From Alphaproteobacteria bacterium (GTDB lineage: Bacteria; Pseudomonadota; Alphaproteobacteria; UBA9219): DNA of 42,770 nt. The DNA is taken from positions 1 through 42,770 of the forward strand of contig JAQUYN010000009.1 of assembly GCA_028691835.1 (NCBI GenBank), given 5' to 3'. Shown in pieces: positions 17,178 to 20,368 of this stretch; within the stretch, counting starts at the first letter, position 1, and each line of letters begins with the position of its first letter. The notes beneath the pieces are model-generated. The model made no database searches. It was not told the DNA's origin and worked only from the letters and a program-made list of their open reading frames with translations. The translations under genes and the position numbers were made by a program.

Positions 17178-17720
17178 ATGGCTAAAAAGAGCGATCTTAC
17201 ACTTATTTCACCAACCTGCCGCCGTAAAATCGACCTGCTGGAGACTCACCGCCTGTGGCTCAAGCGCGCCGCCGAGATCGCCTTGGCCAGCCCAGAAAAG
17301 GGAGGCAGCCCCCATCCATCGGTTAAGGTCGGTGCTATCTTGGTCGATGCAAAAGGGCTGGAAATCGCTCATGCTGCTAACGGGTTTGCTCATGGGATCG
17401 ACCGCCGCCGCCCTGAGCGCTATGAAAACGGCGCTCGCTCGCTTTGGATTAATTGCGCCGAGCAAATGGTGATTGCCAAGGCGGCCCGTAATCAAGCCGA
17501 TTTGAAGGGGGCCAAACTTTATGTGACGTTGGAGCCTTGCGCGATTTGCGCGGGGTTGTTGGTCGAGTGCGGCATTTGCGAAGTGATCGTACCGCTCAGC
17601 TCGCGGCGGTCTTATGCCAAGCTGAAAGCTAAATGGAAGAAGAGTATTGAGATCGGTTCCTCCAAGTTGATGGAGGCTGGCGTGAAAGTTACCGTCGTTG
17701 ATGTGAGCAGCACGCGTTAG
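17178..17720 (+). CDS. Zinc-dependent cytidine/dCMP-type deaminase family protein
   Basis: 180 residues from ATG 17178, set by GGAGGG about six bases upstream; the frame is open further upstream but without a start signal. The deaminase core has Zn-binding Cys93-Ala94-Glu95 (NCAEQ) and Pro120-Cys121-x-x-Cys124 (EPCAICAG), with LYVTLEP before it. Most dCMP, tRNA and riboflavin deaminases have His-Ala-Glu; Cys-Ala-Glu is the arrangement of cytidine deaminases, although the rest (TLEPCxxC) looks like the dCMP/CMP-deaminase-like branch. Glu95 would be the proton shuttle. The substrate is unknown. The gene lies divergent from secF, and its stop overlaps the stop of the TPP-riboswitch gene. Confidence 0.75.
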   Translation: MAKKSDLTLISPTCRRKIDLLETHRLWLKRAAEIALASPEKGGSPHPSVKVGAILVDAKGLEIAHAANGFAHGIDRRRPERYENGARSLWINCAEQMVIAKAARNQADLKGAKLYVTLEPCAICAGLLVECGICEVIVPLSSRRSYAKLKAKWKKSIEIGSSKLMEAGVKVTVVDVSSTR

Positions 17721-18544
17721 GCAGCCAAGGCGGCGAGAGATTGCCGTTGCCAGTCGGAGAACCCTTCCTTTAAATGATCTCCATAGCCACGCATATGAGT
17801 CATGGTGGCGCGGTTTTTGTCGAGGTTCTCAAACACGGTTGTGATGGTTTGCTGGAATTGCCACAGCTGATTTTCACCCTTGGCAACGTAAACTTGATTT
17901 TTCTCTTTTGTCGATTCAGGAAGCTGCAGTCCCACCCCATTATCGTGAATGATATGATGCTTGGGAAGACGCGCAAGAATGTCAAAAAAGGTGCGCTCCG
18001 CGAGCGTTTCTTTTTGAGGTTTGTATAGGCGCTTGGTTGCCATTGTTAGGGCAATATGCTCAAGGTTATTCTCAAGGCACCATGTGTTCGCGTCCAACGC
18101 CGCCGCATTTTTATGGCAAGCTTGTTCACTCAATTCGCTTAAGTACAGAAAGTGGATCATGCGGGTGATTTCTTCTTGCAGCTTGATGTCAAGGATTTGC
18201 AAGTCATCCATATCGTTGTGAGCCGTATAGCGGCCTAACGTGACGATAGAAATGCGATAGCCGCCCGCCCGCATTTGGCCAATATTCTGATAAGAATATT
18301 TTAGGTCTGAGACGTTCATATCATAGATATAATAATTGTCGGCTTCTTGCAGGACATCAAATTCACGCACCGCCGCCCATTCGATTTGGCCAGCATCCAG
18401 TGTCGCTTCTTTTTCAGGAAACCAGACGTTTGTTGATGTGCCTTTGCCAACGCGCTGAAGGTGCGAAAAGCCAGCGATAATTCGCCGTCCCGTTGTGGGG
18501 GCGCTAAAGAAACGCCCCACAGTGTGTGAGAACTCGTGTGACAA
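17717..18544 (-). CDS. Unrecognised protein under TPP riboswitch control
   Basis: 275 residues from a TTG codon at 18544. The open frame extends to another TTG (18583), but that lies inside the riboswitch aptamer. TTG 18544 has the purine-rich AAGGGAG five bases upstream, which is also the 3' strand of the aptamer's P1 stem. I do not recognise the family. The protein looks soluble: no signal peptide or membrane helix, a mixed N-terminal half (WAAVREFDVL, YYIYDMNVSDLKYSY, GGYRISIVTLGRY) and a helical C-terminal half with conserved-looking His and Cys (ACHKNAAALDANTWCLE). It begins MSHEFSH, which formally contains HExxH but is too close to the terminus to claim a metallopeptidase. Thiamine-pathway enzymes I know (ThiC, ThiD, ThiE, ThiM, TenA, transporters) do not fit. 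By its riboswitch it should act in thiamine supply, salvage or transport. It is a single-gene transcript. Confidence 0.75.
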   Translation of the reverse strand: MSHEFSHTVGRFFSAPTTGRRIIAGFSHLQRVGKGTSTNVWFPEKEATLDAGQIEWAAVREFDVLQEADNYYIYDMNVSDLKYSYQNIGQMRAGGYRISIVTLGRYTAHNDMDDLQILDIKLQEEITRMIHFLYLSELSEQACHKNAAALDANTWCLENNLEHIALTMATKRLYKPQKETLAERTFFDILARLPKHHIIHDNGVGLQLPESTKEKNQVYVAKGENQLWQFQQTITTVFENLDKNRATMTHMRGYGDHLKEGFSDWQRQSLAALAA

Positions 18545-18550
18545 AACCTC

Positions 18551-18630
18551 TCCCTTCGCTGGCATGACCCAGATCAGGTTCAACGGGTATCATCTCAGCC
18601 TCACGATTCATGAGGCACCCCGGCGAAAGC
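18551..18630 (-). promoter_or_regulatory. TPP riboswitch (THI element)
   Basis: The minus strand reads GCTTTCGCCGGGGTGCC, a variable P3 hairpin (CTCATGAATCGTGAG), GGCTGAGATGATACCC, then GAACCTGATCTGGGTCATGC and CAGCGAAGGGA. These are the conserved blocks of the thiamine pyrophosphate aptamer (CTGAGA; ACC..TGAACCTGATCTGG.T.ATGCCAGCG.AGGGA). P1 is CTTTCGC with GCGAAGG. The aptamer's AAGGGA runs straight into the ribosome binding site of the downstream TTG start, so binding of TPP should hide that site and repress translation. No separate terminator is seen. Confidence 0.96.
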
Positions 18631-18659
18631 ATACTAAAACAGGGAAGGGGGGATGTCAA
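18631..18659 (-). promoter_or_regulatory. Sigma-70 promoter of the riboswitch transcript
   Basis: On the minus strand, TTGACA (18659-18654), a spacer of exactly 17 bases and TAGTAT (18636-18631). The expected transcription start falls at the very beginning of the aptamer's P1 stem. The -35 box overlaps the stop codon of the upstream EAL gene. Confidence 0.75.
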
Positions 18660-20368
18660 AGGGGGGCTGAGTCGCCCGAGTCTGTGGCGTGAATGCTGCG
18701 TTTTGTTTCATGGTCCAGCTTCACGCACTGAACCGATCCGTCAAGCCAAGGCTTGACGAAAGAGGGTCGTCCAAGGTGATAGCCCTGTAACATGTCCACA
18801 TTTTCTTGGCGAAGCCAGACGGCAGTTTCTTCATCTTCGATGCCTTCGGCAACGGATTGCAGCCTTAATCCGTGTGCCATTGCGATTAACATCCGCACAA
18901 GGTGTCGTTGTTCGGTGTTTGTCGTTAGGTTGATGAGAAGGTCGCGATCAATTTTCATGATCGAGAAATCTAGATCGCGCAAATGACGGATCGAGGTTGA
19001 TCCCGCCCCAAAGTCATCGAGAGAAAGTTGACATCCGACTTTGCGTAAAGCGGAAACGAGATTCTTCATTTTTTCAATATCAACGACAGCGGCTGTTTCC
19101 GTAATTTCAACGATAAGGCGTTTAGCAATCTCGGGACGTGACGCTAGTTTTTCGTGAAAATAGCCGGGCCAATCGGGAAGTCCGGCGGTAAGACCAGAAA
19201 TATTGATGGCCAGATTGAGGGTGTTGCTTTCCTCAAGATCAGCGATGGCAATATCAAGGACATGACGGTCAAATTCTGGGGCAAGCCCCATTTGCTCGAC
19301 GACAGGAATAAACTCCCCAGCAGGCATTGGCGACCCATCATCATTGAAGAGGCGCGAAAGGGCTTCATAGAAGACAACTTTGCTGGTATGGGCTTCAACA
19401 ACTGGTTGATAAGCAAGCTTTAACGTCTTGTTCTTAAGTGATTGTTTGACGCGTTCGCATATATCCAGAATGCCACGGTTACGTTCAGCGCGGCGTGCTG
19501 ATTCAATATAGGTAACGTGCTGTCCACGACCCGTTTGGTTCGCCTCGTTCAGGGCTTGTTCGGCATGGATCATCAGCTCGTAAGCGTCAGCCTGTGTATC
19601 GGCGAACGGCATACAGCCAACGCCAACGGATAAGTGGAGGCAGGTGGTTCCCGCCGAAATGGCGTGATCATGGAAGTTGGCCAGAATACGGGTCGTCAAA
19701 GACTCCATCTCGTGTGCCATGTTGGGTAAAAGAATGCCGAAAATGTCGCCGCTGACGCGTCCAACAAGTGAGCGCGTCGGGCATAAATCGTTTAGACGAT
19801 CAGCCACGGCGCAGATTAACTGGTCTGCGGCTTTTGTCCCCATGGCCTCATTCATGAAAGCAAGTTTATCGATGCCAACGACGAGATAGGCGCTCTGTTG
19901 ACGTTTTTGTTGTGACGTCTTTAAAAGCTTTTCGATAACAGACAGCATGCACGCGCGATTGGGGCGTCCCGTTAAAGGATCTCTATCGGGGCTGTTGTAT
20001 GGTGACGGGCCGAGATCCGTGACGGTCTCAATGAGCCTGATCAGGCCTTGCTGGCGAATGGCATGTCCGTTTTCAAAGTCTGTGGTGCCATGTTCATGAA
20101 CCCACAACAAGGAACCATCATCACACCGCAGCCGATATTCACGATCAAACGAGGTTTGCACGTCGCTGAAAATGAGATGGTGATCATTTGCCAAAATACA
20201 TTTTGAAAGTTCGAGCGCATTTGTCGGCGGGGCGGCACGTTCTTGTCCGAAAAGCTGTTGCCACGGACCAAACCAGACAAGACAATCATGCAATAAGTCC
20301 CATTGATATCCAATGTGACCCGATGCCGTGATAATGTCCGCCGATGAAAGAATGATTGGTCTATCCAT
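18656..20368 (-). CDS. PAS-GGDEF-EAL protein (likely c-di-GMP phosphodiesterase)
   Basis: 570 residues. A PAS-like sensor (about 10-118, with FDREYRLRCDDGSLLWVHEHG) precedes a GGDEF domain whose signature is degenerate, SGDIF at 206-210. It is therefore unlikely to make c-di-GMP, although it may bind GTP. The EAL domain keeps the catalytic pattern: YEALSRL (Glu335), NISG, EITETAAV, DDFGAGSTS, KIDRDL, AEGIEDEE and LQGYHLGRP. It should hydrolyse cyclic di-GMP, with the PAS and GGDEF parts as regulators. There are no membrane segments, so it is cytosolic. The start at ATG 20368 lacks a strong ribosome binding site. The stop lies inside the promoter of the following TPP riboswitch. Confidence 0.92.
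   Translation of the reverse strand: MDRPIILSSADIITASGHIGYQWDLLHDCLVWFGPWQQLFGQERAAPPTNALELSKCILANDHHLIFSDVQTSFDREYRLRCDDGSLLWVHEHGTTDFENGHAIRQQGLIRLIETVTDLGPSPYNSPDRDPLTGRPNRACMLSVIEKLLKTSQQKRQQSAYLVVGIDKLAFMNEAMGTKAADQLICAVADRLNDLCPTRSLVGRVSGDIFGILLPNMAHEMESLTTRILANFHDHAISAGTTCLHLSVGVGCMPFADTQADAYELMIHAEQALNEANQTGRGQHVTYIESARRAERNRGILDICERVKQSLKNKTLKLAYQPVVEAHTSKVVFYEALSRLFNDDGSPMPAGEFIPVVEQMGLAPEFDRHVLDIAIADLEESNTLNLAINISGLTAGLPDWPGYFHEKLASRPEIAKRLIVEITETAAVVDIEKMKNLVSALRKVGCQLSLDDFGAGSTSIRHLRDLDFSIMKIDRDLLINLTTNTEQRHLVRMLIAMAHGLRLQSVAEGIEDEETAVWLRQENVDMLQGYHLGRPSFVKPWLDGSVQCVKLDHETKRSIHATDSGDSAPL

Follow-up and report, generated by a model that had tools for sequence, protein, structure and literature searches.

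What is a gene of no recognised family doing behind a TPP riboswitch? Riboswitches are reliable labels of pathway membership, and the question arises for a gene on the minus strand of a 42,770-nucleotide stretch of alphaproteobacterial DNA (contig JAQUYN010000009.1; the whole stretch is called the window below). An earlier examination of the letters of this DNA, hereafter the sequence-only reading, had described a promoter, a THI-box aptamer and a gene, and had assigned the gene product to thiamine metabolism in a broad sense. We followed up this description by covariance, profile and structure searches and by comparison with related genomes.

A TPP riboswitch preceding a single gene

The features of the locus are collected in Table 1. 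A genome-wide search returned one TPP riboswitch for the genome to which the window belongs, namely, the one in the table. It covers positions 1–105 of the Rfam model RF00059 and scores 70.6 bits (E = 4.8e-12), against a gathering score of 54.3 bits, confirming the complete aptamer that had been proposed. Judged by sequence, the riboswitch is of the canonical TPP type. When 16 homologous leaders were analyzed with RNAalifold, P2, P3 and two 3′ helices were recovered; five base pairs had both sides altered in at least one sequence, and such paired changes were found in P2, P3 and P5.

Table 1. Features of the riboswitch locus and its flanking genes (positions in the window)
Feature	Position	Strand	Basis
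Sigma-70-type promoter, TTGACA-N17-TAGTAT	18631..18659	(−)	10/12 matches to consensus
TPP riboswitch aptamer (THI element, RF00059)	18534..18632	(−)	Rfam covariance match, all model positions
True aptamer, inside the RF00059 match	~18550..18624	(−)	
SD-like AAGGGAGAGG	18547..18556 (to within a base or two)	(−)	sequence; in aptamer 3′ end
Orphan soluble protein, 275 aa, TTG start	17717..18544 (stop codon included)	(−)	275-codon ORF
Upstream gene, PAS-GGDEF-EAL	18656..20368	(−)	
Downstream ORF, deaminase family	17178..17720	(+)	dCMP_cyt_deam_1, E 3.5e-19

The 5′ end of the aptamer adjoins the promoter, which agrees with the consensus as the sequence-only reading had stated, and a TTGACA-like box occurs at a similar site upstream of most homologous aptamers. 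At the other end, AAGGGAGAGG overlaps both the strand of the last aptamer helix and the 3′ strand of P1. In the Rfam and RNAalifold structures, the last helix contains pairs between a CCU and the AAGG of this SD-like stretch, and the bases after the AAGG form the 3′ side of P1; the placement of the SD within the aptamer is similar in the homologues. In the alignment of the 16 leaders, the start codon sits a few bases 3′ of a conserved GCGAAGGGAG, and the TTG of the window aligns with the ATG of most other leaders, which makes a start at 18544 credible. The suggestion of a TTG codon whose ribosome-binding site merges into the last aptamer strand was thus sustained.

This layout is the one expected for a TPP-dependent hiding of the SD sequence, and TPP binding is predicted. 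Transcription would begin at the aptamer edge; with TPP bound, the closing helices would sequester the AAGGGAG ribosome-binding site and the TTG-started ORF would stay untranslated, while scarcity of TPP would allow the orphan protein to be made. The switch would accordingly be of the OFF kind.

The upstream gene ends inside the −35 box of the riboswitch gene, and the ORF on the other side is convergent with the orphan gene, its end overlapping the orphan stop region. Because this next gene is convergent, the natural reading of the flanks is a transcript with one gene, as had been supposed. The overlap of the PAS-GGDEF-EAL stop codon with the promoter was noted in passing, as was the same neighbor in genome G018. 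In 7 of 23 loci, spanning different genera, a relative of the deaminase is encoded next to the orphan gene or close by; this proximity may have some meaning or none. The neighbors of the homologues were otherwise variable (recX, for instance, lies directly 5′ of the gene in G017 and G029), and no thi genes were found among them.

Joint occurrence of protein and aptamer

The order was sampled with 33 genomes: 24 from the family of the window, 4 from a sister family and 5 from a third family. All are metagenome-assembled genomes (MAGs), several of them estimated to be 99–100% complete. Among the named records in the window's family are MAGs that carry the names Micavibrio, Rhodospirillaceae and Alphaproteobacteria; none of the papers searched mentions both the TPP riboswitch and Micavibrio. 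Searching the contigs with the window protein as single query gave no matches, and searching with the family alignment gave 22 loci.

Homologues, 36–53% identical to the window protein, occurred in 22 of the 24 genomes of its family. These were exactly the 22 genomes with a TPP riboswitch, one each, and the aptamer was directly 5′ of the orphan gene in every case (counting G016, whose aptamer at 53.2 bits is slightly below the 54.3 cut-off). The two remaining genomes had neither protein nor riboswitch. The question raised by the sequence-only reading, whether homologues might lack the riboswitch, was therefore answered largely in the opposite sense, the exceptions being a paralogue in the same family (G017:C43) and, in the sister family, the copy of G029 and both copies of G031. 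This paralogue, a second copy of the orphan protein and devoid of riboswitch, was seen adjoining a tRNA gene, both at G017:C43 (L024) and at G000:C107:1-312 (L125); at the latter, from the genome of the window, a contig holds the 3′ end of the paralogue alone, near a recombinase-like ORF.

The sister-family homologues are divergent, and the copy of G027 has its 5′ end cut by the contig start. Genome G025 of this family, however, keeps the aptamer together with the protein and has secF and prepilin-peptidase homologues as neighbors in common with the window locus, so the pairing is probably older than the split between the two families. In the third family the protein was absent from all five genomes. 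No match was found outside the order in samples of 385 Alphaproteobacteria and of 398 genomes of the phylum; plasmids yielded no homologue, and phages, queried with two homologues, none of the protein core.

The aptamer-less homologues in the sister family and the one aptamer-less paralogue mean that the protein need not be under TPP control. They would also suit a function that is not specific to thiamine (in central metabolism, for example) and for which TPP is no more than a tuning signal, reflecting how much nutrient or prey is available, and so would the neighboring GGDEF-EAL, secF and recX genes, none of which has a link to thiamine. We nevertheless regard this explanation as rather improbable: aptamer and gene were kept together in 22 of 22 genomes over deep divergence, the protein is complementary to thiC between families (see below), and most TPP riboswitches that we read in other Alphaproteobacteria precede thiC, thiS-thiG, thiD, thiE or ABC, MFS or TonB transport genes. 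The genes at these comparison loci were identified from their translations, without family search, and at one of them (L040) the gene after the riboswitch was not clearly assigned. In the account given by PMC12632268, the genes with TPP riboswitches are those of biosynthesis and transport.

Thiamine metabolism in the order

ThiC was found in none of the 28 genomes of the window's family and the sister family, versus all five of the third family, where the TPP riboswitch sits 5′ of thiC. The same contrast (0/28 versus 5/5) applied to ThiE above the cut-off, and ThiL scored above its cut-off in the third family only. Among the sub-threshold ThiL matches in the window's family, the four best proved on checking to be HypE, encoded beside HypD; the remaining ones were judged PurM/PurL-like by length alone. 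Thiamine pyrophosphokinase (TPK_catalytic, PF04263) was not found in any of the 33 genomes, nor was ThiB, the single transporter model tested; the usual route is ThiBPQ-ThiK-ThiL (PMC12632268). All 33 genomes nonetheless encode TPP-dependent transketolase/dehydrogenase domains.

Both protein-bearing families thus appear, from gene content, to be vitamin B1 auxotrophs that use TPP. This assessment is based on ThiC, ThiE, ThiL, thiamine pyrophosphokinase and ThiB, and gene absence is less certain in MAGs than in finished genomes. One member of the window's family, G012 (98% complete), is without the protein and the riboswitch and is also without ThiC; the orphan protein may, for this reason, not be indispensable.

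The position of the aptamer on thiC in one family of the order brings to mind that the orphan gene could have captured, by chance, an aptamer left behind nearby when a thiC operon was lost. This we consider very improbable. The thiC neighborhoods of the third family and the neighborhood of the orphan gene have no gene in common. Moreover, as the proteins diverged to about 40% identity, the aptamer was preserved: it shows paired changes, and the position of the start codon has hardly moved.

The orphan protein and its likely role

The protein family ranges from about 240 to 430 aa. Neither the window protein nor its homologues gave a consistent or credible family match in Pfam, NCBIfam or PADLOC, and the PDB sequences contained no credible relative. 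In Foldseek searches with two AlphaFold models, no match had an E value below 0.4; the models are weak, and their mean pLDDT values (72.8 and 67.7) are too low for claiming a new fold. Comparison with the ThiL and ThiE profiles was equally negative, in keeping with the earlier statement that the protein fits no known thiamine family. In particular, there was no NCBIfam match to ThiL (TIGR01379), and hhalign against the ThiL of the third family gave a probability of 0.1%; no Pfam match to thiamine pyrophosphokinase (PF04263) or to ThiE/TenI (TMP-TENI, PF02581) was obtained, the hhalign probability for the latter again being 0.1%.

Several weak matches were discarded. Those of the window protein to EAL and L11 methyltransferase models (E 0.015–0.07) were under the cut-offs and inconsistent among homologues, as were other Pfam and NCBIfam matches, each to a single homologue. 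A FolD-like stretch in the PDB (E 0.0003, 54 positions, one chain) was a short local match without fold support. The match to PHROG 8234 (E 4e-10) falls outside the core, in an inserted segment specific to the homologues of G015 and G002 (L016 and L017). The insert in L016 has a further match, to sequence that is annotated as a Brevundimonas phage head-tail connector.

The maximum 19-residue hydropathy of the window protein is 0.54, which implies no transmembrane segment and bears out the description of a soluble product; over 23 homologues the maximum was 0.42–1.19, and the profile of a transmembrane transporter was not seen. R28, W67, R71, N81, R108, D124 and D130 (numbering of the G003 homologue) are among the residues that hardly vary over 28 homologues. 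All of these except W67 would suit a phosphate and metal site.

Regulation and distribution together suggest the thiamine link. The orphan gene is the sole TPP-riboswitch gene in a lineage that is devoid of ThiC, ThiE, ThiL (at the cut-off), thiamine pyrophosphokinase and ThiB and yet encodes TPP-dependent enzymes. We therefore think it reasonably likely that this one gene is under translational control by a standard TPP riboswitch and that its soluble product takes part in the salvage of vitamin B1, where it would handle or convert thiamine or thiamine phosphates taken up from outside. Against this count the missing fold match, the lack of thi-gene neighbors, the aptamer-less copies and the case of G012. 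Of the roles offered by the sequence-only reading (synthesis, salvage, uptake or regulation), salvage is thus favored, and biosynthesis is unlikely since ThiC and ThiE are gone from both protein-bearing families. A more specific proposal, a new and unrelated enzyme for the missing final step or steps to TPP (phosphorylation of thiamine or thiamine monophosphate), seems to us possible but doubtful.

A protein that is soluble and outside any recognised catalytic family could also be a non-catalytic handler of TPP or thiamine (in binding, storage, delivery or regulation) or a soluble partner in uptake, made when TPP is low, in an order where the one transporter model tested found no known thiamine transporter. 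No export signal is evident in the protein, however, and the transcript has no transporter gene, and we hold this explanation to be unlikely, though worth keeping in mind. Should the preferred salvage role apply to an enzyme, the protein would fill a gap in B1 metabolism and could serve as a marker by which B1 auxotrophs are recognised among Micavibrio-like bacteria.

As for known systems, the orphan protein is akin to ThiL and thiamine pyrophosphokinase solely by inference, both being missing where it occurs, whereas comparisons by sequence, profile and fold showed no resemblance to them. The orphan gene resembles the riboswitch-controlled uptake genes of auxotrophs (ThiBPQ, TonB, MFS) in being the single riboswitch gene of a lineage without thiamine biosynthesis genes, but, unlike them, encodes a soluble protein free of membrane segments. 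The locus is also like the translational TPP riboswitches of RF00059 that overlap the SD sequence: all model positions and the conserved core are present, the SD lies in the 3′ end, and the promoter is directly 5′. The locus differs from known RF00059 loci in what its riboswitch controls, which is neither a thi gene nor a recognised transporter but a gene outside the known families. What is new here is therefore not the riboswitch, which is canonical, but the controlled gene, representing an unnamed family of soluble proteins in apparent B1 auxotrophs.
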